Assembly: GCF_014217805.1 (NCBI RefSeq)
Contig: NZ_CP055156.1
Coordinates: forward strand, 2,796,585 to 2,860,584
Length of the DNA stretch: 64,000 nucleotides
Source of the DNA: Adhaeribacter swui
Lineage (GTDB): Bacteria; Bacteroidota; Bacteroidia; Cytophagales; Hymenobacteraceae
Direction of reading: 5' to 3'
This document shows, one piece after another, positions 171 to 15,131 of the stretch. The notes under the pieces are model-generated. The model did not search any database, had not been told where the DNA came from, and saw only the letters and a program-made list of their open reading frames with translations. The stretch's first letter is position 1, and every line of letters begins with the position of its first letter. Position numbers and translations under genes: made by a program.

Positions 171-2681
171 ATGAGCAGTTTAGTAGCACAGCCCCAACGT
201 ATAGTAGTAATAGGAAATGGTATGGTTGGTTATAAGTTTTGTGAAAAGCTTGTAGCTAAAGCCCAACCCAGTGCTTTCCAAATTATTGTTTTCGGCGAAG
301 AACCTCGCCCCGCTTACGACCGCGTTCACCTGAGTGCTTATTTTTCCGGTACAACCGCCGAAGAACTAACCATGGCGCCGGTAGAATGGTATGCGCAGAA
401 TAATATTAATCTGCATTTAGGCGAATTAGTTACCAGTGTAAATGCCGCTACCCGAACTATTACCACTCATAAAGGAGAATCCATTAGCTACGATAAACTA
501 ATATTAGCTACCGGCTCCAGCGCTTTTGTGCCGCCCATTAACGGCGTGGAAAAAGAAGGCGTTTTCGTGTACCGCACCATCGAAGACCTGGATGCTATGT
601 TGGAATATGCGCCTAAGGCTAAAACTGCTGCTGTTATTGGCGGAGGTTTATTGGGCTTAGAAGCAGCCAAAGCAGCGGTAGATATGGGCCTGACCACTCA
701 TGTAATTGAATTTGCTTCCCGGTTAATGCCGCGGCAATTAGATGAAGCCGGTTCCGAAATGTTGAAGCGAAAACTCGAAAGCCTGGGCATCAGCATTCAT
801 TTAAATAAAAGTACTACCGCTATTCTGGGAGGACCGGGGGTAGAGAAAATGCTTTTTGCGGATGGTAGCGAGTTGGATGTAGATATGATTATTGTGTCGG
901 CGGGTATTAAGCCGCGCGACGAGTTAGCTATTAAAGCCGGTTTAGCCGTAGGGCCTCGGGGTGGTATTATGGTGAATGATGCCTTACAGACGTCGGATGC
1001 TAATATTTACGCTATCGGCGAAAGTGCTTTACACGGTGGCATGATTTACGGTTTGGTAGCGCCCGGTTACGATATGGCCGACACCGTTGTAACTAACTTA
1101 TTGGGCGGCGAGAAAACCTTCAAAGGTTTCGATATGTCTACCAAACTAAAATTGATTGGCGTAGACGTAGCCAGCTTCGGCGATGCATTTGCCAGTCCGG
1201 CCACCAGCCGTTCTATTGTTTTCGAAGACAAAGCCAAAGGTATTTACAAGCGCATTAATATTTCGGAAGACGGCAAACACTTAGTAGGTGGTATTTTGGT
1301 AGGTGATGCCGGTAACTACAACATGTTGCTGCAAACCGTACAAAACAAAATTATCCTACCCCAAGACCCCGAAGATTTGATTTTAGGTTCTCGTGGAGGC
1401 GCTTCTGAATCGGCTGGTGCGGGTGTAATGAGTTTGCCCGACGAAGCTTTGATTTGCTCTTGCGAAAACGTAAGTAAAGGGGATATCTGTTCGTCTGTAA
1501 AAGATGGAACCTGTACGGATGTAGCCGGAATAAAAAAATGCACCAAAGCCGGAACGGGTTGCGGCGGCTGCATTCCGATGGTGAATGATTTACTCAATGC
1601 TACCTTAAAGCAGATGGGTAAAGAAGTGAAAAAAGTATTGTGCGAGCACTTTGATTATTCCCGGCAAGAGTTACTGGATCTTGTAAAAGTAAATAATATC
1701 CGCAGCTTCGACGAATTACTGCACAGCCACGGTCGCGGTGATGGTTGCGAAATATGCAAACCAGCCGTAGCTTCTATCATGGCCAGCACCTGGAACGAGC
1801 TCATTCTAAAACAAGCCACCATCCAGGATACCAACGACCGCTATCTGGCTAATATTCAAAAAGGTGGTACATATTCAGTAGTGCCCCGCATTGCCGGCGG
1901 CGAAATTACTCCGGAAAAATTAATTGTCATCGGGCAGGTGGCGGCTAAATATGGCTTGTACACCAAAATTACCGGCGGCCAACGGATTGATATGTTCGGC
2001 GCCCGGGTGGATCAGTTGCCCGATATCTGGGAAGAATTAATAAATGCCGGTTTCGAAAGTGGCCACGCTTACGGCAAAAGCTTACGAACCGTAAAAAGCT
2101 GCGTGGGTTCTACCTGGTGCCGCTACGGCTTGCACGATTCGGTAGGGTTTGCCATTCAGGTAGAAGAGCGTTACCGAGGCTTGCGTTCGCCGCACAAATT
2201 AAAAGGCGGGGTTTCGGGTTGCGTGCGCGAATGTGCCGAAGCGCAATCGAAAGACTTTGGCATTATTGCCACCGAAAAAGGTTGGAATTTGTACATCTGC
2301 GGTAACGGCGGCGCTAAACCCCAGCACGCCCAGCTTTTCGCCACCGACCTCGACAGTGAAACCTGCATTAAATACCTCGACCGGTTCCTGATGTTTTACA
2401 TTAAAACCGCTGAACCCTTAAACCGAACCGCCACCTGGTTAAACAAAATGGAAGGCGGTATGGAGTACCTGCGCCAGGTGATTGTAGAAGATTCTTTAGG
2501 TATTTGCGCCGACCTGGATCGTGAGATGCAGTTTATGGTTGATACCTACGCCTGTGAATGGAAAGAAGTAGTGAACAATCCGGAGCTGCGCCAACGCTTC
2601 CAGCACTTCATTAACACACCCGAACCTGATCCGTCTATCCGCTTTAAACCCGAACGCGGCCAAAAAGTGCCGGTGGTTTAA
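171..2681 (+). CDS. nirB: Assimilatory nitrite reductase [NAD(P)H], large subunit NirB
   Basis: Reduces nitrite to ammonium in the cytoplasm, drawing electrons from NAD(P)H through FAD, [2Fe-2S], [4Fe-4S] and siroheme. The 836 residues match the usual NirB length. An FAD Rossmann motif lies at 12-20 (G15, G17, G20) and an NAD motif VIGGGLLGLE at 155-164. A BFD [2Fe-2S] module uses C429, C431, C464 and C467, and a second BFD-like helical segment spans about 490-540. A ferredoxin-like half-domain (about 560-630) leads to the siroheme/Fe4S4 ligands C644, C650, C684 and C688. ATG start. The 170 bases upstream are AT-rich and show no clear promoter. It is followed by nirD, porin, narK and nasA on the same strand, which fits an assimilatory role. 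Siroheme synthesis genes are not in the window. Confidence 0.96.
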   Translation: MSSLVAQPQRIVVIGNGMVGYKFCEKLVAKAQPSAFQIIVFGEEPRPAYDRVHLSAYFSGTTAEELTMAPVEWYAQNNINLHLGELVTSVNAATRTITTHKGESISYDKLILATGSSAFVPPINGVEKEGVFVYRTIEDLDAMLEYAPKAKTAAVIGGGLLGLEAAKAAVDMGLTTHVIEFASRLMPRQLDEAGSEMLKRKLESLGISIHLNKSTTAILGGPGVEKMLFADGSELDVDMIIVSAGIKPRDELAIKAGLAVGPRGGIMVNDALQTSDANIYAIGESALHGGMIYGLVAPGYDMADTVVTNLLGGEKTFKGFDMSTKLKLIGVDVASFGDAFASPATSRSIVFEDKAKGIYKRINISEDGKHLVGGILVGDAGNYNMLLQTVQNKIILPQDPEDLILGSRGGASESAGAGVMSLPDEALICSCENVSKGDICSSVKDGTCTDVAGIKKCTKAGTGCGGCIPMVNDLLNATLKQMGKEVKKVLCEHFDYSRQELLDLVKVNNIRSFDELLHSHGRGDGCEICKPAVASIMASTWNELILKQATIQDTNDRYLANIQKGGTYSVVPRIAGGEITPEKLIVIGQVAAKYGLYTKITGGQRIDMFGARVDQLPDIWEELINAGFESGHAYGKSLRTVKSCVGSTWCRYGLHDSVGFAIQVEERYRGLRSPHKLKGGVSGCVRECAEAQSKDFGIIATEKGWNLYICGNGGAKPQHAQLFATDLDSETCIKYLDRFLMFYIKTAEPLNRTATWLNKMEGGMEYLRQVIVEDSLGICADLDREMQFMVDTYACEWKEVVNNPELRQRFQHFINTPEPDPSIRFKPERGQKVPVV

Positions 2682-2781: not shown

Positions 2782-3153
2782 ATGATACAAACGCCTCCTT
2801 CTGCCGACCGCCTCGCTGATGTTTCGTTTTGGTTTAAAGCCGCCGAAGTAAGCGCCTTTCCGGAAAACGGTGGGGCCTGCGTGAAATACCAGGACCAACA
2901 AATTGCGGTATATCACTTTGCTAAGCGCAACGAGTGGTACGCTTCTCAGAACTTATGCCCGCATAAACAGCAAATGATTTTGTCGCGCGGCCTTATCGGT
3001 GACCAGTGCGGCGAACCCAAAGTGGCTTGTCCGTTTCACAAAAAAACATTCTCGTTGCTCACCGGTGAAAACCTGAACGGCGAATGCTACCACATTGAAA
3101 CTTACCCGGTTAAAATAGAAGACGGCTACGTGTACATCGGTTTGCGGGATTAG
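2782..3153 (+). CDS. nirD: Nitrite reductase small subunit NirD (Rieske type)
   Basis: A 123-residue partner of NirB with the Rieske fold. The [2Fe-2S] ligands are present as C59-P-H61 and C83-P-F-H86. Many NirD proteins have lost these ligands, so this one should still bind a cluster. It lies 100 bases after nirB on the same strand, with an AT block and no clear terminator between them, so co-transcription is likely. ATG start at 2782. A generic Rieske ferredoxin is the alternative reading, but position and length favour NirD. Confidence 0.9.
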   Translation: MIQTPPSADRLADVSFWFKAAEVSAFPENGGACVKYQDQQIAVYHFAKRNEWYASQNLCPHKQQMILSRGLIGDQCGEPKVACPFHKKTFSLLTGENLNGECYHIETYPVKIEDGYVYIGLRD

Positions 3154-3246: not shown

Positions 3247-3260
3247 TTCCAAAAATCACT

Positions 3261-3406
3261 GCTGGCGCGAGCGTCCACGCTCGTGTCTAACCATCTGGTA
3301 GGCCTCTGGCCGGGTGAACCGATAAACTTAAAAAAGCCAATCAGCAACAAGTTTCTACCGGCCAGAGGCCGGACGATAAGCATCACGAGCGATGACGCTC
3401 GCGATA
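3261..3406. repeat. About 150-bp compound palindrome, copy 1
   Basis: The outer arms are each a hairpin (GAGCG/CGCTC) and are also inverted copies of one another, matching at about 18 of 20 positions (CGCGAGCGTC against its complement). An inner pair, GGCCTCTGGCCGG near 3300 and CCGGCCAGAGGCC near 3358, forms a 13-bp long-range stem. A second copy lies at 10312-10459. With the element at 3157 it fills the nirD-porin spacer. A reading frame runs through it, but that looks like chance. A REP/MITE-like mobile palindrome is the likeliest class. Confidence 0.8.
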
Positions 3407-4998: not shown

Positions 4999-6372
4999 AT
5001 GACGCTACTATCCAGCCCTACAGTCGGTAAAGCCACCAAAATCAAGATTTTTAGTTTTGCCGGCCCGCACATGCGTACGTTTCATATTACGTGGTTTGCC
5101 TTTTTTCTTTGTTTTGTTGCCTGGTTTGGCGTGGCCCCGTTAATGCCAGTAATCCGCGAAGAGTTTCATTTAACTAAAGCCCAAATTGGTAACATTATTA
5201 TCTCCTCGGTAGGTATTACCATTTTTGCCCGCTTGTTTATCGGCTGGCTGTGCGATAGAATTGGTCCCCGGATTACCTACAGTATTATTTTAATTCTGGG
5301 TTCGTTGCCGGTCATGTTTATTGGCCTAAGCAATAGCTACGAATCCTTTTTGCTGTTCCGGTTGGCCATTGGCGTAATCGGGGCATCGTTTGTGGTAACC
5401 CAGTTTCATACCTCATTAATGTTTGCGCCTAACGTAGTAGGCACCGCTAATGCTACTACAGCAGGTTGGGGCAACATGGGCGGTGGCGCCACTCAAATTA
5501 TTATGCCCCTGATTTTTGCCGGGTTTATTGGTTTGGGTTACGTAGATACGGCCGCCTGGCGGTATGCAATGGTAGTACCCGGAGTTTTGTTATTCTTGAT
5601 GGGGATTGCCTATTATAAATTTACCCAGGATACCCCCGAAGGCAACATAGCCGATTTAAAAAAGAACGACCCGGCTTACCGGATGAAAGCAGCCGAGAGC
5701 AAAGGCGCTTTCTGGAAAGCCTGCAAAGATATCCGGGTGTGGATGCTGTTCTTAATCTACGGTGCTTGCTTCGGTATCGAAATCACCATCGACAACATTG
5801 CCGCCATTTACTACTTCGATAAGTTTAAGCTGAACCTGGAAACAGCGGGTTTAATTGCCGGTCTGTTCGGAATGATGAATATTTTTGCCCGCACCCTGGG
5901 CGGTTATTTCGGTGATAAAGCTGGTATCCGGTACGGTTTAAAAGGTCGGGTTTTATTTCTGGCGTTCGCTTTATTCATGGAAGGTGTGGCCCTGATTCTT
6001 TTCTCCCAAATGACCGTTTTACCCATTGCCATTGCCGCCATGTTGTTCTTTAGCTTATTCGTGAAAATGTCGGAAGGAGCTACGTTTTCCGTGGTACCAT
6101 TTATTAATAAAAAAGCCATTGGCTCTGTGTCCGGTATTGTGGGAGCTGGCGGTAACGTAGGCGCCGTACTAGCCGGTTTTCTCCTGAAAGACGAATCCTT
6201 AACCTACAGCGATGCTTTATTTATCATTGGTTGTACGGTAATGGCGGTATCATTCGCCTCGTTCCTGGTACGTTTCACCAAAGCCCACGAAGCCGAAGCG
6301 CAACAAGAAATGAACGAGTCTTTAGGTACCGTTCCGACCAGTTCAGAAACCCCGGTTCCTGCTATCGCATAA
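4999..6372 (+). CDS. narK: Nitrate/nitrite transporter, MFS NNP family (NarK/NasA type)
   Basis: A 457-residue inner-membrane transporter with about 12 hydrophobic segments. It carries both NNP glycine-rich signatures: GWGNMGGGATQ near residue 155 and GIVGAGGNVGAVLAGF near 378. Charged loop motifs such as GWLCDRIGPR fit the major facilitator fold. It probably brings nitrate into the cytoplasm for the reductase encoded next. The C-terminal 25 residues are hydrophilic. ATG start at 4999. The sequence does not decide between nitrate/proton symport and nitrate/nitrite exchange, but the assimilatory context favours uptake. Confidence 0.93.
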   Translation: MTLLSSPTVGKATKIKIFSFAGPHMRTFHITWFAFFLCFVAWFGVAPLMPVIREEFHLTKAQIGNIIISSVGITIFARLFIGWLCDRIGPRITYSIILILGSLPVMFIGLSNSYESFLLFRLAIGVIGASFVVTQFHTSLMFAPNVVGTANATTAGWGNMGGGATQIIMPLIFAGFIGLGYVDTAAWRYAMVVPGVLLFLMGIAYYKFTQDTPEGNIADLKKNDPAYRMKAAESKGAFWKACKDIRVWMLFLIYGACFGIEITIDNIAAIYYFDKFKLNLETAGLIAGLFGMMNIFARTLGGYFGDKAGIRYGLKGRVLFLAFALFMEGVALILFSQMTVLPIAIAAMLFFSLFVKMSEGATFSVVPFINKKAIGSVSGIVGAGGNVGAVLAGFLLKDESLTYSDALFIIGCTVMAVSFASFLVRFTKAHEAEAQQEMNESLGTVPTSSETPVPAIA

Positions 6373-6755: not shown

Positions 6756-9700
6756 ATGAAAAAGAATAAGAGCCATCGTTTTAAAACTACCTGTTCATAC
6801 TGCGGCGTAGGCTGCGGCATTGTGGTGGAGCAAGACGCGAAAGGTAAAATTCGGGTAGAAGGCGATGCGGAGCATCCGGTAAACAGAGGCATGCTTTGCT
6901 CCAAAGGAATGAATTTGCACTATGTCGTTTCGGACCATTCTGACCGGTTGCTGTACCCCGAAATGCGCTGGGCTAAAAATCAACCGCGCCAACGGGTAAG
7001 CTGGGATACCGCCTTAGACCGGGCTGCCGCCGTTTTCAAAACCATTATTGATAAGTACGGACCCGATTCGGTTGGCTTTTATGCGTCCGGACAATGCCTG
7101 ACAGAAGAATATTACATCGTGAACAAACTGGTAAAAGGCTATTTGGGTACGAATAACCTCGATACCAATTCCCGGTTGTGCATGAGTTCGGCAGTGGTGG
7201 GTTACAAAATGGCCCTCGGCGAAGATGCTGTCCCGGCAAGCTATGAGGATATCGAATTAGCCGATTGTTTTTTTATTGCCGGTGCCAATCCGGCTTGGTG
7301 CCATCCCATTCTTTTCCGGCGTTTAGAGCAGCACAAAGAACAGCATCCGGAAATTAAAATAATTGTAGTTGACCCGCGGCGTACTAAAACCTGCGCGCTC
7401 GCTGATTTACACTTACAGATAAATCCGGGTACCGATATTGTTTTGTACCACGCTATTGCCCGTTATCTCATCGAAGAAAATTTGATTGATGAGGCTTTCG
7501 TGCAGAACCATACCGATGGATTTGAAAATTTTAAAAACTTTGTTTTTCAGACCAGTATCGAAGAAGCGGCTTTTATCTGCGATGTGTCTGTTTCGGATAT
7601 AAAACTGGCCGCTACTTACATTGGCAATGCCAACGGTTTTATTTCGATGTGGGCCATGGGCCTGAACCAAAGCGTAATAGGGGTAGATAAAAACCTGGCT
7701 TTATTAAACTTATCTCTCATCACTGGGCAGATTGGTAAACCAGGTTCCGGGCCTTTGTCCTTAACCGGCCAGCCAAACGCTATGGGCGGTCGTGAAGTAG
7801 GTGGTATGGCTAATTTGTTATCGGCGCACCGCGATTTAGCTAATCCCGTGCACCGCCAGGAAGTGGCGAATTACTGGGGGGTGCCCAGCGTACCCGCTCA
7901 ACCCGGCCTTACCGCCACCGAAATGTTCCGGGCACTACGCGAAGATAAATTAAAAGCCGTTTGGATTATTTGTACCAACCCCTTAGTAAGTTTGCCGGAG
8001 GCCGGTATTATAGAAGAAGCTTTGAAAAAAGCCCGTTTTGTAGTGGTCCAGGATATTTCAAACAAAGCCGATACCTTACAGTACGCCGATTTAATATTGC
8101 CTGCGGCCGGTTGGCTCGAAAAAGAAGGCACCATGACTAACTCCGAGCGACGCATAAGCTACTTAAACAAAGTAGTATCACCTCCCGGCGAAGCCTTGCC
8201 CGACGTAGAAATTCTTTGCCGTTTTGCCAAGAAAATGAATTTCTCTGGGTTTGATTACAAACGAACCGATGAAATTTACGAAGAGCACGCCCGCCTGACC
8301 AAAGGAACCAACATTGATATTAGCGGCTTAAATTACGAAGCGTTGCAGGAAAAACGCAGCATCCAATGGCCGGTTCCGGCATTGGGTCATGAAGGCACGC
8401 CTCGCTTGTTTACCGACCATCAGTTTTACACCCCAAATAAACGCGCTAAAATCTTGTCCCCGGCTTCGGTGCATAACCAGTCGGAGCCGGTGAGTCCGGA
8501 ATTTCCTTTGATTTTAACTACCGGCCGTATTCGTGACCAATGGCATACCATGACGCGCACCGGGAAAGTAAATAAACTCAAGCAACACTTAGGTAAACCC
8601 TTCCTGGAAATTAACCCGTTAGATGCTGCTCTGCGCGATATCAATGACGGAGATACCGTAGAGATTGTAAGCCAGCGCGGTAAAGTTCGGGTAAATGCCG
8701 TGGTTACAACCGATATTAAAACCGGCGTGATATTCCTGCCCATGCACTGGGGAAAAATATTAAACCGCGATTTTGGCCGTACCAACAACTTAACCAATAC
8801 CCTCGTCGACCTAAAATCGAAAGAACCGGATTTTAAATTTTCGGCGGTACAGGTTCAGAAATACCAGAAGCCGTTCGAGAAAATAGTCATTATTGGCGCC
8901 GGGGCAGCTGCTTACCGTTTTATCAATACCTACCGAGAGAAGAATATTACCGACGATATTCATGTGTTTTCGCAGGAAGCTTATCCGTTTTACAACCGGG
9001 TATTATTGCCCGAATACCTGAACGGCCACCTGAACTGGGAACAACTCGAAAAATTTAAAGCCGGTGAACTTGCTAAGTTAGACGTGTACCTGCACGAATC
9101 CACGGGTATCCGGTCCATTAACCGGGTAGCCAAAACTGTTACTGATACCCACGGCAAAGTTCACACTTATGATAAGCTAATTATTGCTACCGGTAGCCGG
9201 GCCTTCGTGCCGAAAGATGTACCCATGGAGCTGCCGGGTATTTTTACCATGCGTAACCGCGGCGATGCCGACCGTTTAAAAACTTTCCTGAACCACCAGG
9301 GGCACGTAGTAATTGTAGGAGGAGGTTTACTAGGTTTGGAGTTAGCCGCCTCCTTACGTGAAATAGATATTAACGTGTCCATTGTGCAACTGAGCTCGCG
9401 GCTCATGGAGCGGCAACTCGACTTAATTTCCGGGGATTTACTGCGCGAGCACATCGACGAGATGGACGTTAAAGTTTATTTCAACGACCAGGTACAAACC
9501 ATTTTCCCGAATAAAAACGAACCTGGACTGGTAGTAAATTTAAAAAGTGGAAAAGCCTTACCGTGTAACGCAGTAGTATATGCCGTAGGAACGCGCCCCA
9601 ACGTAGAACTTGCCCTGGAAGCCCAGATTGCCTGCGGTCGCGGAATTTTAGTAAACGATTACTTACAAACCACTACCGACTCCGACATTTTTGCCATGGG

Positions 9701-10283
9701 CGAAGTAGCCGAATTTAATGGTGTAGTAAACGGCATTACCGCAGCCGCCGAGCAACAAGCCGATGTCGCCGCCCGTTTCCTGGCAGGTGATTTCAGTAGC
9801 TATTATTCTGGCTCCATCTTCATGAATATTTTAAAGCTGGCTGATCTGGACTTGTGTTCTTTAGGCATGGTAGAAGTGCCCGATAATAGCCCGGACTACG
9901 AAGAGGTGATTTTTACGGACAAAGCCAAACGCTATTACAAGAAATGCATTATCCATCAGGATAAGTTAGTGGGAGCTATTTTGATGGGTGACAAAAGCGA
10001 ATTTGCTGAGTTTAAAACCCTCATCGAAAATAAAATTGAATTATCGGAAAAACGCATGGAATTGCTCCGGTCCGGTAAACCGATTGCGCCGGTTATGGGT
10101 AAACTGGTGTGCTCCTGCAACAACGTAGGCGAAGGAAATTTAACCGCCATGGTAAAAGGCGGCTGCACCGATTTCCGGCAACTATGCCAGCAGTCTGGCG
10201 CGGGGCTGGGCTGTGGTTCCTGCAAACCCGAAGTAAAAGCCATTTTGGAACGGGCTTTACCATCGGAACCAATTTCAGTGTAG
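6756..10283 (+). CDS. nasA: Assimilatory nitrate reductase fused to an FAD/NAD(P)H reductase and BFD module
   Basis: Reduces nitrate to nitrite in the cytoplasm. Residues 1-700 form the Mo-bis-MGD enzyme: [4Fe-4S] ligands C13, C16, C20 and C48, probable Mo ligand C142 in RLCMSSAVVGYK, and a molybdopterin dinucleotide-binding domain near 580-690 (TTGRIRDQWHTMTRTGK). A NirB-like FAD/NAD(P) module starts near 711 (IIGAGAAAY) with a second Rossmann motif (IVGGGLLGLELAAS) near 850. A BFD [2Fe-2S] module (CSCNN...GCGSC) lies at about 1119-1155. This combines what Bacillus splits into NasC and NasB. There is no Tat signal, so it is cytoplasmic. ATG start with GGAG about 11 bases upstream. The 382-base spacer before it holds the narK-end array and a structured leader. 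Confidence 0.93.
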   Translation: MKKNKSHRFKTTCSYCGVGCGIVVEQDAKGKIRVEGDAEHPVNRGMLCSKGMNLHYVVSDHSDRLLYPEMRWAKNQPRQRVSWDTALDRAAAVFKTIIDKYGPDSVGFYASGQCLTEEYYIVNKLVKGYLGTNNLDTNSRLCMSSAVVGYKMALGEDAVPASYEDIELADCFFIAGANPAWCHPILFRRLEQHKEQHPEIKIIVVDPRRTKTCALADLHLQINPGTDIVLYHAIARYLIEENLIDEAFVQNHTDGFENFKNFVFQTSIEEAAFICDVSVSDIKLAATYIGNANGFISMWAMGLNQSVIGVDKNLALLNLSLITGQIGKPGSGPLSLTGQPNAMGGREVGGMANLLSAHRDLANPVHRQEVANYWGVPSVPAQPGLTATEMFRALREDKLKAVWIICTNPLVSLPEAGIIEEALKKARFVVVQDISNKADTLQYADLILPAAGWLEKEGTMTNSERRISYLNKVVSPPGEALPDVEILCRFAKKMNFSGFDYKRTDEIYEEHARLTKGTNIDISGLNYEALQEKRSIQWPVPALGHEGTPRLFTDHQFYTPNKRAKILSPASVHNQSEPVSPEFPLILTTGRIRDQWHTMTRTGKVNKLKQHLGKPFLEINPLDAALRDINDGDTVEIVSQRGKVRVNAVVTTDIKTGVIFLPMHWGKILNRDFGRTNNLTNTLVDLKSKEPDFKFSAVQVQKYQKPFEKIVIIGAGAAAYRFINTYREKNITDDIHVFSQEAYPFYNRVLLPEYLNGHLNWEQLEKFKAGELAKLDVYLHESTGIRSINRVAKTVTDTHGKVHTYDKLIIATGSRAFVPKDVPMELPGIFTMRNRGDADRLKTFLNHQGHVVIVGGGLLGLELAASLREIDINVSIVQLSSRLMERQLDLISGDLLREHIDEMDVKVYFNDQVQTIFPNKNEPGLVVNLKSGKALPCNAVVYAVGTRPNVELALEAQIACGRGILVNDYLQTTTDSDIFAMGEVAEFNGVVNGITAAAEQQADVAARFLAGDFSSYYSGSIFMNILKLADLDLCSLGMVEVPDNSPDYEEVIFTDKAKRYYKKCIIHQDKLVGAILMGDKSEFAEFKTLIENKIELSEKRMELLRSGKPIAPVMGKLVCSCNNVGEGNLTAMVKGGCTDFRQLCQQSGAGLGCGSCKPEVKAILERALPSEPISV

Positions 10284-10311
10284 TTAATTTTTAAAATTTT
10301 GCTGGCTAATT

Positions 10312-10459
10312 GCTGGCGCGAGCACGCCTCGCTCGTGTCTACCATCTAGTAGGCCTCTGGCCGGACTAACGGATAAACTTAAATTACGAGCAAATAATAC
10401 AAAGCTACTACCGGCCAGAGGCCGGACAATGGGCATCACGAGCGAGGACGCTCGCGATA
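10312..10459. repeat. About 150-bp compound palindrome, copy 2
   Basis: Shares the outer arms (CTGGCGCGAGC near 10313 and GACGCTCGCGATA near 10447) and the inner 13-bp pair (GGCCTCTGGCCGG, CCGGCCAGAGGCC) with the element at 3261-3406. The central loop has diverged. The strong match at both ends with a variable middle suggests dispersal of a defined element. It sits between nasA and the rubredoxin-domain gene. Confidence 0.8.
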
Positions 10460-10509
10460 GAGAACAGAAAAGGAAATTGAAAATGATAATGGTGAAATGG
10501 AGGTTTGTT

Positions 10510-10559: not shown

Positions 10560-12017
10560 ATGGAAAAAAGAGATTTAGTCCGGGTATTTGCCCGGGGGGG
10601 AGTAGTGTCGCCGGGAGATTTAAAGCAGATTCTGACAACTGCTAGTGAGTTTGGGAACGAGGTGATTCATTTTGGGTCGCGGCAGGATATTCTGTTTCCG
10701 GTAAGTATCCGCAGCAAAACGATTCTGGATACTACTTTTCAGGCCATTCGCACGGACTATGATTTTGGCGGCAAGCATTACGAAAATATAGTTAGCTCAT
10801 ACGTAGCCGCCGATATATTACCCGCCACCAGCTGGCTGCACTCTGATACCTATTTGTATATTTTGGATGATTTTGAGCGCTATCGTCCGCAACTAAAAGT
10901 AAACATTGCTGATCCCCGGCAAACGCTGGTACCTCTTTTTACCGGAAATTTAAATTTTGTGGCTTCCAAGCAGGAAAATTACTGGTATTTGTATGTTAGC
11001 TTACCCAAATACGGAAATAAATTGGTTTGCTGGCCAGCCTTGATTTATACTTTCGATGTGGTGCGCACGGTAAAAGCCTTGGAAGCGGTTTACCTGGATC
11101 AACCTAATTTACCCATTACCGGTTTGTACGACCAAACCAACGCCAGCATAAAAGCAAATAACCGGCCTTTGCAAAGCGAACTGGAATTACCTACTGTTCC
11201 TTTCCCGACGTACGAGGGCATGAACAAAATGGCCGGCGATAAATACTGGCTGGGGCTTTATTGGCGCAATAACCAGTATACCATTAACTTTTTGCAGGCT
11301 CTCTGCGATTTATGCGTGCAAACCAATATTGGTAAAATCAGCATTACGCCCTGGAAATCGTTTATTATTAAAGGCATTGCCGAGTGCGATAAAATAAAAT
11401 TTGAAAAGCTGCTGGGTAAATTCGGGATAAACATGCGGCATTCGTCGCTAGAACTAAACTGGCACTTGCCGGTACTCGACGAAGAAGCTCTGCAGTTGAA
11501 ACGTTATCTCGTACGCACCTTCGACCAGAACGACATTAGCACCGAAGGTTTAACGTTCGCGATTAAAACGGTTCCGATGGTCTTGTTCACCTCCATCGTG
11601 ATCGAGAAAAATCCGGCTTCTAAGTATTCCGATAAGTACGAACTGCTGCCCACTTACAATGTTTTGTACTGCCGAGATTTCAATCCAAACAAACGCGATT
11701 ATCTGGCTTACGCGAAAGATGTGTTACAAGAAGACCTGGCGCCTCTGCTCATGGAATTAAGCCGCTTGTACTACGAACAATTACATTACGAGCCCGAAGT
11801 AAAAGTAAGTAAGCCAACCGTGGAGCAAAAATCCCTGCACCCGGTTTACCAATGCTCCCATTGCTTAACGGTTTACGATCAAGCTTTTGGTGATGAAAAT
11901 GCGGGTATTCCGGCCGGAGTTACTTTTAAAGAGTTACCATCATCGTACGTTTGTTCGTTGTGCGAAGCACCTAAAAAAGATTTTGTGGAACTGCATCTGG
12001 AAAAAACACCGCATTAG
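10560..12017 (+). CDS. Siroheme-reductase-like scaffold with C-terminal rubredoxin domain, function unknown
   Basis: A 485-residue protein. Residues 8-48 (ARGGVVSPGDLKQIL...FGSRQDILFPV) and about 240-273 (IGKISITPWKSFIIKGI) resemble the two ferredoxin-like half-domains of nitrite/sulfite reductases. The siroheme/Fe4S4 ligand pattern (C-x5-C and C-x3-C) is absent, so that catalytic centre should be missing. The C-terminus is a rubredoxin domain with C432, C435, C465 and C468 and the usual GIPAGVTFKELP core. A lone C249-x2-C252 pair is also present. Encoded between nasA and moeA, it may carry electrons to, or help assemble, the nitrate or nitrite reductase. That is inference. ATG start follows a G-poor array. 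Confidence 0.85.
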   Translation: MEKRDLVRVFARGGVVSPGDLKQILTTASEFGNEVIHFGSRQDILFPVSIRSKTILDTTFQAIRTDYDFGGKHYENIVSSYVAADILPATSWLHSDTYLYILDDFERYRPQLKVNIADPRQTLVPLFTGNLNFVASKQENYWYLYVSLPKYGNKLVCWPALIYTFDVVRTVKALEAVYLDQPNLPITGLYDQTNASIKANNRPLQSELELPTVPFPTYEGMNKMAGDKYWLGLYWRNNQYTINFLQALCDLCVQTNIGKISITPWKSFIIKGIAECDKIKFEKLLGKFGINMRHSSLELNWHLPVLDEEALQLKRYLVRTFDQNDISTEGLTFAIKTVPMVLFTSIVIEKNPASKYSDKYELLPTYNVLYCRDFNPNKRDYLAYAKDVLQEDLAPLLMELSRLYYEQLHYEPEVKVSKPTVEQKSLHPVYQCSHCLTVYDQAFGDENAGIPAGVTFKELPSSYVCSLCEAPKKDFVELHLEKTPH

Positions 12018-12240: not shown

Positions 12241-13449
12241 ATGATACCAGTTGACGAAGCTTTTGCCCGAATAATGGCCCAGAAAATAGAGCTGCCTGTT
12301 GCCGAGGTTAGCCTGGAAGAAGCCGTAGGAAAAATTTTGCGGGAGCCCATTTATGCCGACCGGGATTTTCCGCCGTACCACCGGGTAACCATGGATGGCA
12401 TTGCGATCCGGTACGAATCGTATCTGGCTGGTGAAGATACTTTTCGGGTAGAAGGCATGCAACTGGCCGGGGCACCAGCCCAAACTTTAACCCACAAAGA
12501 CGAGTGCCTGGAAGTAATGACCGGCGCTATTTTGCCCAAAAATACCGATACGGTAATCCGCTACGAAGATGTAAGCATTATTGAACGGCGGGGAAAACGT
12601 TACGCGCATATTTTAGCTGCTCCCAAAATGCGGCTCCAGAATGTACACCAGCAAGGCTCTGACCGGAAAGCTACAGATTTACTAATTCCGGAAGGTACTC
12701 TTTTATCGCCTGCCGAAATAGCCGTGGCGGCTACCGTGGGTAAAGCGAGTTTAAAAGTTACGCAAGCGCCCCGGGTGGCGATTATCTCAACGGGTGATGA
12801 ATTGGTGAAGGTAACCCAAACGCCTTTGCCCCACCAGATCCGGAAATCTAACAGTTATATGTTGCAGGCGGCCATGCGCGAACAAAACGTGTTGGCCGAT
12901 GTATTTCATTTAATAGATGATAAATCGTTGCTACTGGATGAACTACAACAAAAATTTAAAAAGTATCAGGTGCTGGTGTTAAGTGGGGGCGTAAGTAAAG
13001 GCAAAGCCGATTTTATTCCGGAAGTTTTACAAGAATTAGGCGTAGAGCAGGTTTTTCACGAGGTAGCTCAACGGCCTGGTAAGCCATTCTGGTTCGGGAA
13101 ACAGGCGGCTGGTCCGGTAGTTTTTGCTTTGCCGGGTAATCCGGTTTCTACGTTTGTGTGCTATTATAAATACATCAGGCTCTGGCTGCGGGCAATATTG
13201 GGCGCTGCGCCCGCCTGGAATCTGCAGGCTCATTTAACCACCGAAATTACTTTTAATCCCAAGCTTACTTATTTTTTACCGGTAAAAGTTTTTATTTCCG
13301 CTACTGGCTGGCGCGCGCAACCCGTGCCCATTGGTGGGTCCGGCGATTTTGCCGGCTTGCTGGCCGCCGACGGATTTCTGGAGCTTCCGCCAGACCAAAT
13401 CAAGTTTTCGCCAGGAGATACTTTTCCGTTTATTGGTTTTAGAAGTTAG
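12241..13449 (+). CDS. moeA: Molybdopterin molybdenumtransferase MoeA
   Basis: Inserts molybdate into adenylated molybdopterin to form molybdenum cofactor. The 402-residue length is typical. Motifs seen: PPYHRVTMDGIA near 40, MTGAILPKNTDTVIRYEDV near 95, the MoCF-type IISTGDELV near 180, SGGVSKGKADF near 245, and GKPFWFG...ALPGNPVS near 280-300. ATG start at 12241. The 222-base upstream spacer shows no clear promoter or terminator. It follows the nitrate reductase genes on the same strand and opens the cofactor block. The adenylating partner Mog/MoaB is not in the window. Confidence 0.94.
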   Translation: MIPVDEAFARIMAQKIELPVAEVSLEEAVGKILREPIYADRDFPPYHRVTMDGIAIRYESYLAGEDTFRVEGMQLAGAPAQTLTHKDECLEVMTGAILPKNTDTVIRYEDVSIIERRGKRYAHILAAPKMRLQNVHQQGSDRKATDLLIPEGTLLSPAEIAVAATVGKASLKVTQAPRVAIISTGDELVKVTQTPLPHQIRKSNSYMLQAAMREQNVLADVFHLIDDKSLLLDELQQKFKKYQVLVLSGGVSKGKADFIPEVLQELGVEQVFHEVAQRPGKPFWFGKQAAGPVVFALPGNPVSTFVCYYKYIRLWLRAILGAAPAWNLQAHLTTEITFNPKLTYFLPVKVFISATGWRAQPVPIGGSGDFAGLLAADGFLELPPDQIKFSPGDTFPFIGFRS

Positions 13450-14807: not shown

Positions 14808-15131
14808 TTAATGTCTGCAGTCTAAATCTTTCTCCACTATAATTCTCAACTGTTTCTCCTTACCTACGTCAATCAGGTCATCAAACCCAACTAAGTTGGT
14901 ATCAGTCCATTTTTTTGCCATTGCTTCCGGAATAGAAACCGTAATAAGGTTGTTGGTAAAACGAACGCTCACTTCTTTATCAGAAGTTTGTTGTAGAAGA
15001 TAGCGCAAAGCGTTGGTAGTATCGGGGCTAAAGGTAATCGTTTCTTCTACCTGGCCTGTGTCGGCAAATTGCGTAACTTCGGCTTCGGAAAGGCGCAAAC
15101 GCAAACTGTTTCCTTGGATTCTGAGTTTCAT
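14808..15131 (-). CDS. Small conserved Bacteroidota protein, DUF7009-like
   Basis: A 107-residue soluble protein that opens with MKLRIQGNSLRLRLSEAEV, a start I associate with the DUF7009 family of Bacteroidota. It has a strand-rich pattern and no signal peptide, membrane segment or catalytic motif. Three of the last five residues are D, C and R/H types, but no metal site is evident. It lies antisense within the molybdenum-cofactor block, between the Nif3-like gene and moaC, which hints at a cofactor-related role without proving one. ATG start, with a GACTATGGACTA array directly upstream. Confidence 0.75.
   Translation of the reverse strand: MKLRIQGNSLRLRLSEAEVTQFADTGQVEETITFSPDTTNALRYLLQQTSDKEVSVRFTNNLITVSIPEAMAKKWTDTNLVGFDDLIDVGKEKQLRIIVEKDLDCRH

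Follow-up and report, generated by a model that had tools for sequence, protein, structure and literature searches.

We analysed a window of 64,000 nucleotides from Adhaeribacter swui that carries a nitrate assimilation cluster in the order nirB-nirD-porin-narK-nasA, followed by the gene studied here and then by moeA. For this gene we use the working name psiR (pseudo-siroheme-reductase/rubredoxin gene) and for its product PsiR. The features of the window that bear on it are as follows.

171..2681, + strand: nirB, large subunit of the NADH nitrite reductase (TIGR02374)
2782..3153, + strand: nirD, small subunit of the nitrite reductase (TIGR02378)
4999..6372, + strand: nitrate/nitrite transporter of the narK family (TIGR00886)
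6756..10283, + strand: nasA, nitrate reductase with a Mo domain and a NirB-like FAD plus BFD [2Fe-2S] module (Pfam)
8880..10037, + strand: FAD/NADH module of NasA, NirB/rubredoxin-reductase type, residues 709-1094 (PF07992, PF18267)
10104..10253, + strand: BFD [2Fe-2S] domain of NasA, residues 1117-1166 (PF04324)
10310..10480, no strand assigned: one copy of an interspersed element with inverted repeats, in the 276 bp that separate nasA from psiR (own-genome search)
10560..12017, + strand: psiR, an open reading frame with an ATG start, 485 aa
10572..11792, + strand: predicted complete two-repeat sulfite/nitrite reductase fold lacking the Fe4S4/siroheme Cys, residues about 5-411
10578..10700, + strand: first NIR_SIR_ferr half-domain, residues 7-47, with R8, R41, and Q42 (PF03460)
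11190..11450, + strand: second half-domain region, residues about 211-297, with a conserved TPWKS motif (weak CobG/CysI/NirA matches; second repeat in hhalign)
11304..11315, + strand: C249-x-x-C252 pair in the second half-domain, conserved among 44 members
11847..11984, + strand: rubredoxin domain, residues 430-475, with C432, C435, C465, and C468 (PF00301, E 1e-13)
12241..13449, + strand: moeA, molybdenum cofactor synthesis, an occasional neighbour of psiR

In its Pfam architecture (Rubredoxin_C, PF18267, with Fer2_BFD, PF04324), the NasA of the window is built like the first half of NirB; flavin modules of the NirB type are in general expected to carry Rubredoxin_C. The protein holds FAD, [2Fe-2S], and Fe4S4 domains and none for siroheme, and its FAD module also matched NorW in NCBIfam. 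About 150 bp of the gap between nasA and psiR consisted of the interspersed repeat, a REP/MITE-like element of some 150 bp with nested inverted repeats, a second copy of which lies at about 3260-3406 of the window. The own-genome search, in which 40 of 52 candidates were scored, gave 47 matches to this element; six were reverse-strand doubles inside others, so that about 40 places remained.

The Pfam scan of PsiR gave two domains above the gathering score, a rubredoxin (PF00301) whose cysteines lie in C-x2-C pairs, and PF03460, which matched in two stretches, the best at residues 7-47 (E 1.2e-10). In the NCBIfam scan, the rubredoxin match was sub-threshold and CobG, CysI, and NirA matched the second half-domain weakly. 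Modelling and profile alignment with hhalign predicted a complete two-repeat nitrite/sulfite reductase fold for PsiR, which is the fold of the nitrite-reducing module. An earlier sequence-only reading of this DNA had seen two half-domains and suggested comparing a predicted structure with the half-domain fold. The prediction was not of an unrelated structure, and the half-domains are real, but they are predicted to be parts of a whole two-repeat reductase. The predicted-fold matches, together with the profile alignments, argue for full-length homology between PsiR and the reductases. The PsiR profile found nothing significant among PDB sequences (best E 0.36, with NirA at 1.2), and hhalign of PsiR against three NirA rows covered one half-domain only. 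The possibility that psiR is a decayed gene or an artefact was ruled out, as the frame is open and conserved across many genera.

To place the gene in a family, we used a genome scan (tblastn, E up to 1e-3) in which at least 594 stretches matched and at least 570 encoded a PsiR relative. The best 80 of these at least 570 relatives were read, a sample that favours close relatives; judged by record titles, their genera were mostly of the Cytophagales and Flavobacteriia types, plus Fodinibius, which we take to belong to Balneolota. Two annotated homologues on plasmids carried just the product name 'rubredoxin'.

The sequence-only reading had also reported that the C-x5-C and C-x3-C ligands of siroheme and Fe4S4 are absent, and this was borne out across the family. 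None of the nine cysteines of the window PsiR (positions 157, 249, 252, 276, 371, 432, 435, 465, and 468) form such pairs. The PF01077 siroheme/Fe4S4 domain was absent from the window PsiR and, at E up to 1, from 44 of 44 diverse members, all of which matched PF03460. A Cx4-6C...Cx2-4C pattern in the relevant region was found in 0 of 125 PsiR rows, a set that includes the window gene (L002), one gene entered twice (L019 and L023), and the truncated L009 (excluded from alignment A3), and that excludes L085 and L097, two loci at contig ends. A siroheme enzyme masked by sequence drift was, with 0 of 125 rows, ruled out as far as the Cys ligands are concerned. In the hhalign alignment, the first Cys pair of the reductases fell on P304 and a deletion immediately after it, and the second pair fell in a deletion after residue 336.

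The remainder of the pocket was partly retained. We take R8, R41, N76, K113, the Arg before 'NI', and the Arg and Lys of the LPRKF motif to be siroheme-lining or substrate residues of the reductases. R41, its neighbour Q42, and N76 were invariant in all 44 members, position 8 was R in 34 and K in 8, and position 113 was K in 36 and R in 5. The Arg before 'NI' was replaced by Q, P, or E in 41 of the 44, and in the LPRKF motif the Arg had become Pro in 41 and the Lys was variable (K in 16, R in 5). The basic residues R8/K8, R41, and K113 were thus largely kept and two others were lost or variable. Because the Cys ligands are gone and part of the pocket is replaced, a siroheme-Fe4S4 active site of known kind is, judged from the sequence, excluded in PsiR. 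The protein may still bind a tetrapyrrole loosely.

The sequence-only reading had suggested that PsiR perhaps guards siroheme, in which case the protein would hold siroheme or sirohydrochlorin and deliver it to NirB. The partial survival of R8/K8, R41, N76, and K113 is consistent with this role, as is the constant occurrence of psiR with NirB in our samples, one orphan (genome G182) excepted. However, the axial Cys and the cluster ligands have gone from 125 of 125 rows, two pocket Arg residues are each replaced in 41 of 44 members, and the gene partner nasA encodes no siroheme domain. Moreover, a PF01077 search of this genome found NirB, an ORF of 711 aa of the sulfite-reductase type (matched in two stretches), and nothing else, and directly behind the 711-aa ORF lies a NAD_binding_7 ORF, presumably of the siroheme-synthase type. 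The variant in which the genome lacks a siroheme pathway and PsiR supplies siroheme is unsupported, since both of these ORFs are present. Neighbours resembling uroporphyrinogen methyltransferase by eye occurred at 14 of the best 80 of at least 570 loci, and no siroheme gene was a constant neighbour. With four Cys and part of the pocket lost and a separate NAD_binding_7 ORF at hand, the guarding of siroheme found no support, and we rate it the least probable of the roles considered.

The conserved positions of PsiR also raised the question of catalysis of another sort, namely a CobG-like tetrapyrrole-modifying or NO/NOx-handling enzyme on the reductase fold that would draw its electrons from the attached rubredoxin. 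Several polar residues that do not vary (N115, D118, Q121, N132, E298, and T328) point in this direction, as does the C249/C252 pair, in which C249 was kept in 41 and C252 in 42 of the 44 members. The second half-domain also matched CobG weakly (E 1e-4), and did so at E up to 0.001 in 4 of 28 members. This match reached 21.4 bits against a cut-off of 234.8, and membership in the CobG family (TIGR02435) was rejected; no solved CobG structure was among the fold matches listed, which says nothing for or against such a relationship. No other set of cofactor ligands was recognised in PsiR, and inspection by eye of the 28 largest neighbour clusters of the best 80 of at least 570 loci revealed no cobalamin gene. 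An active enzyme of this kind is, in our judgement, very unlikely. The C249/C252 pair also modifies the statement that the rubredoxin is the only metal site of the protein: its four Cys are present as described, but a second conserved Cys pair lies outside it.

The rubredoxin itself was nearly constant. Its four Cys were found at 80 of 80 loci (the best 80 of at least 570 relatives) and in 44 of 45 rows from other genomes sampled. In the distant member L019 the rubredoxin was shortened, and it was missing from the orphan psiR of G182 (L046, also L136, on contig C4 near its start), a genome with neither a NasA-fusion nor a NirB match. This orphan could represent a remnant or another use of the scaffold.

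Among the best 80 of at least 570 relatives, nasA lay directly upstream of psiR on the same strand at 80 of 80 loci (at L085 and L097 the contig ends inside nasA and the FAD part alone is present), with a median gap of 18 bp, a gap of at most 100 bp at 64 loci, and overlapping genes at 21. Likewise, in the phylum sample nasA was directly upstream in 26 of 26 genomes with both genes; the orphan of G182 is the exception to the pairing. The distance from psiR to nirB was 5.9-22 kb in 24 of these 26 genomes, and in 2 nirB was on another contig. A MoeA match lay within 10 kb of psiR at 22 of the best 80 of at least 570 loci, and some clusters contained moeA, moaA, moaC, or moaE. The position between nasA and moeA, noted in the sequence-only reading, therefore describes the window correctly, but of the two neighbours nasA is constant and moeA occasional. 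The same reading had asked whether the family co-occurs with nasA/nirB; both genes do co-occur with psiR, but the gene partner is nasA and nirB is distant or on another contig.

Other neighbours were recorded in passing. Near moeA and moaC, the window encodes a DUF7009 protein (14808-15131, - strand; PF22668, E 1e-31), and proteins resembling it by their N-terminus lay one or two genes downstream of psiR at 9 of the best 80 of at least 570 loci. A conserved protein of about 194 aa was found at 23 of these 80 best loci (L051-L130), and on a Hymenobacter plasmid (L137) a DUF4202 protein adjoins cobA, close to psiR.

Given its reductase shape without catalytic ligands, its rubredoxin, and the position of its gene directly behind nasA, PsiR is therefore probably a helper subunit of nitrate reductase in many Bacteroidota. 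The main rival to a subunit that relays electrons is a maturation factor, a NasA-specific chaperone for insertion of the Mo-cofactor or Fe-S clusters or for assembly of the fused NasA, in which the rubredoxin would be a structural or sensing metal knuckle. NarM and NarJ are such factors for other nitrate reductases. The tight one-to-one nasA-psiR gene pair, the moeA, moaA, moaC, or moaE genes of some clusters, and the full electron chain already present in NasA would all suit this role. It gives no reason, however, why NasA fusions lacking NirB are also without psiR, or why the rubredoxin was kept at 80 of 80 loci (the best 80 of at least 570), and no chaperone family was matched in the Pfam and NCBIfam scans of PsiR. 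We consider a maturation factor unlikely.

The distribution of psiR was followed in several samples. Of 59 near relatives of the source genome, 19 carried a relative of the gene. A sample of 345 genomes from across the phylum gave strong matches (E below 1e-120) in 27; 18 further genomes had weak matches only, and those with ORFs of about 700 aa resemble CysI. NasA fusions were counted at E below 1e-200 where the frame was open for 1168 aa or more, and NirB at E up to 1e-100. The 345 genomes then contained 27 psiR, 31 NasA fusions, and 26 NirB, with all three together in 26. NasA fusions without NirB occurred in 5 genomes, all without psiR, psiR alone in 1 (G182), and NirB without psiR in 0, and psiR was found in 0 of the 15 genomes with an unfused NasA-like match alone. 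The class of G234, inferred to be Rhodothermia in the wide sense, had 12 NasA fusions in 195 genomes, 5 with NirB and psiR and 7 with neither. When these overlapping samples (345 and 195) were merged, 34 genomes had a NasA fusion, 27 of them with NirB and psiR and 7 with neither. On plasmids, psiR was present in 4 of 72,556 records; a NasA match was found in 337, and at least 80 % of the fused NasA was covered in 4, the same 4 that carry psiR. Together with the operon data, this co-occurrence supports the proposal of the sequence-only reading that a reductase fold without its metal centre has been reused in nitrate assimilation.

Since psiR accompanied 27 of 27 genomes with both a NasA fusion and NirB and 0 of 7 without NirB, PsiR might instead be a scaffold that joins NasA to NirBD and lets nitrite be handed on before it accumulates; its fold, predicted to be that of the nitrite-reducing module, would mimic the NirB partner and the rubredoxin would be secondary. 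A nirB gene 5.9-22 kb away or on another contig does not favour such coupling, and the seven negatives came from three genera, five of them from one genus, so that ancestry may explain the pattern. Indeed, the five psiR-less NasA fusions that were put in a tree formed one clade (support 1.0) among 85, and a single gain inherited with the cassette may therefore explain presence and absence of psiR, rather than dependence. We regard the scaffold as quite unlikely, ranking behind the maturation factor. Tree distances of PsiR and NasA were correlated with r 0.91 over 80 pairs (including the window and three plasmid loci and excluding L085 and L097). This correlation is not specific to the pair, because other pairs from the cluster reached 0.77 (PsiR-NarK, 49 loci), 0.84 (PsiR-NirB, 15 loci), and 0.91 (NasA-NirB, 15 loci).

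In each of the five psiR-less clusters L131-L135, NasA was adjoined by an ORF with a NirA-type Cys motif. Flavodoxin/FNR candidates resembling a split CysJ, recognised by a shared N-terminal stretch, likewise lay there in all five; Pfam confirmed the NIR_SIR, flavodoxin, and FNR domains in L131 and L134 only. The partner proteins of these five loci start with a similar 'APF..EQR.WLNGF' stretch, which may be a shared docking peptide. Because the five clusters carry a NirA-type ORF and CysJ-like candidates instead of psiR, the ancestor of PsiR may have been a NirA-type nitrite reductase whose place NirB took. That a nitrite/sulfite reductase was stripped of its metal centre and, with the rubredoxin attached, became a subunit given over to relaying electrons for the nitrate reductase of Bacteroidota is a tentative possibility.

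The reading that we prefer, with a rough probability of 0.48, is that PsiR serves the assimilatory NasA of the Bacteroidota type as an accessory subunit without catalysis of its own, in which the dead reductase docks and the rubredoxin relays single electrons. The sequence-only reading had already proposed a carrier or docking platform that might pass electrons to the nitrate or nitrite reductase, and this too is an inference. NirB has an FAD-BFD module similar to that of NasA, and there it feeds the siroheme-reductase module of the same chain. In PsiR, the dead reductase module would be a separate partner that still recognises redox modules of the FAD-BFD type and so serves as a docking platform, and the flexibly tethered rubredoxin could act as a one-electron relay within NasA or between NasA and NirB, keeping nitrate and nitrite reduction balanced. 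An AlphaFold2 run on locus L063, in which PsiR and the FAD-BFD module of NasA were joined in one chain, gave a pTM of 0.48 (a shallow alignment of 21 paired rows, with the Mo domain omitted and no positive control), and hence no confident docking of PsiR on this module was obtained. Nor is the relay chemically required, because NasA itself holds FAD, [2Fe-2S], and Fe4S4 and NasA fusions exist without psiR.

If the accessory-subunit reading is true, the nitrate reductase of a large group of Bacteroidota has one subunit more than has been described, listed in databases as 'rubredoxin', and PsiR would show clearly how a redox enzyme can become a pseudoenzyme and yet go on handling electrons. The balance of nitrate and nitrite reduction in a system with the flavin module on the nitrate reductase would become directly testable, and the nasA-psiR pair could serve as a gene marker for this type of nitrate assimilation.

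Among open-licence PMC papers, we found no description of the PsiR architecture; its parts are known, and we could not find their combination described, nor any nitrate reductase partner that has lost its metal centre. PsiR shares its predicted fold with CysI/SiRHP, NirA, and plant NiR, but lacks their four Fe4S4/siroheme Cys and has a partly replaced pocket; compared with the siroheme-Fe4S4 reductases, PF01077 is not recognised and a rubredoxin is added. With CobG, precorrin-3B synthase, it has the weak similarity of the second half-domain in common. Flavorubredoxin NorV, which works with NorW, likewise has a C-terminal rubredoxin, and PRK05452 matched the rubredoxin end of 24 of 28 PsiR members, whereas no flavodiiron-core match was found in PsiR. 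The passages on rubredoxin in two further papers concern flavodiiron proteins and rubrerythrin (PMC7412212, PMC6616624).

Two systems come closer. NIRFU of Micromonas and other prasinophytes, described in the relevant passages as a putative ferredoxin-nitrite reductase that is 53 % identical to a tomato NIR, is a fusion of nitrite reductase, rubredoxin, and an FNR-superfamily domain (PMC5344333). It resembles PsiR in its nitrite reductase fold and C-terminal rubredoxin, whereas PsiR lacks the metal ligands, shows no FNR domain in the Pfam scan, and has its flavin module on NasA. In Paracoccus, the ferredoxin NasG is said to take electrons at the NADH site of NasB and deliver them to NasC and NasB, preventing nitrite build-up (PMC4724949). 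Here, too, a small carrier is encoded with the nitrate reductase and is thought to split electrons between nitrate and nitrite, although NasG is called a ferredoxin, with no reductase scaffold mentioned in the passages on it (PMC4724949), and PsiR is a rubredoxin on a pseudo-reductase. Because of these precedents, as far as those passages describe them, NIRFU (PMC5344333) and NasG (PMC4724949) make an electron relay through PsiR plausible.
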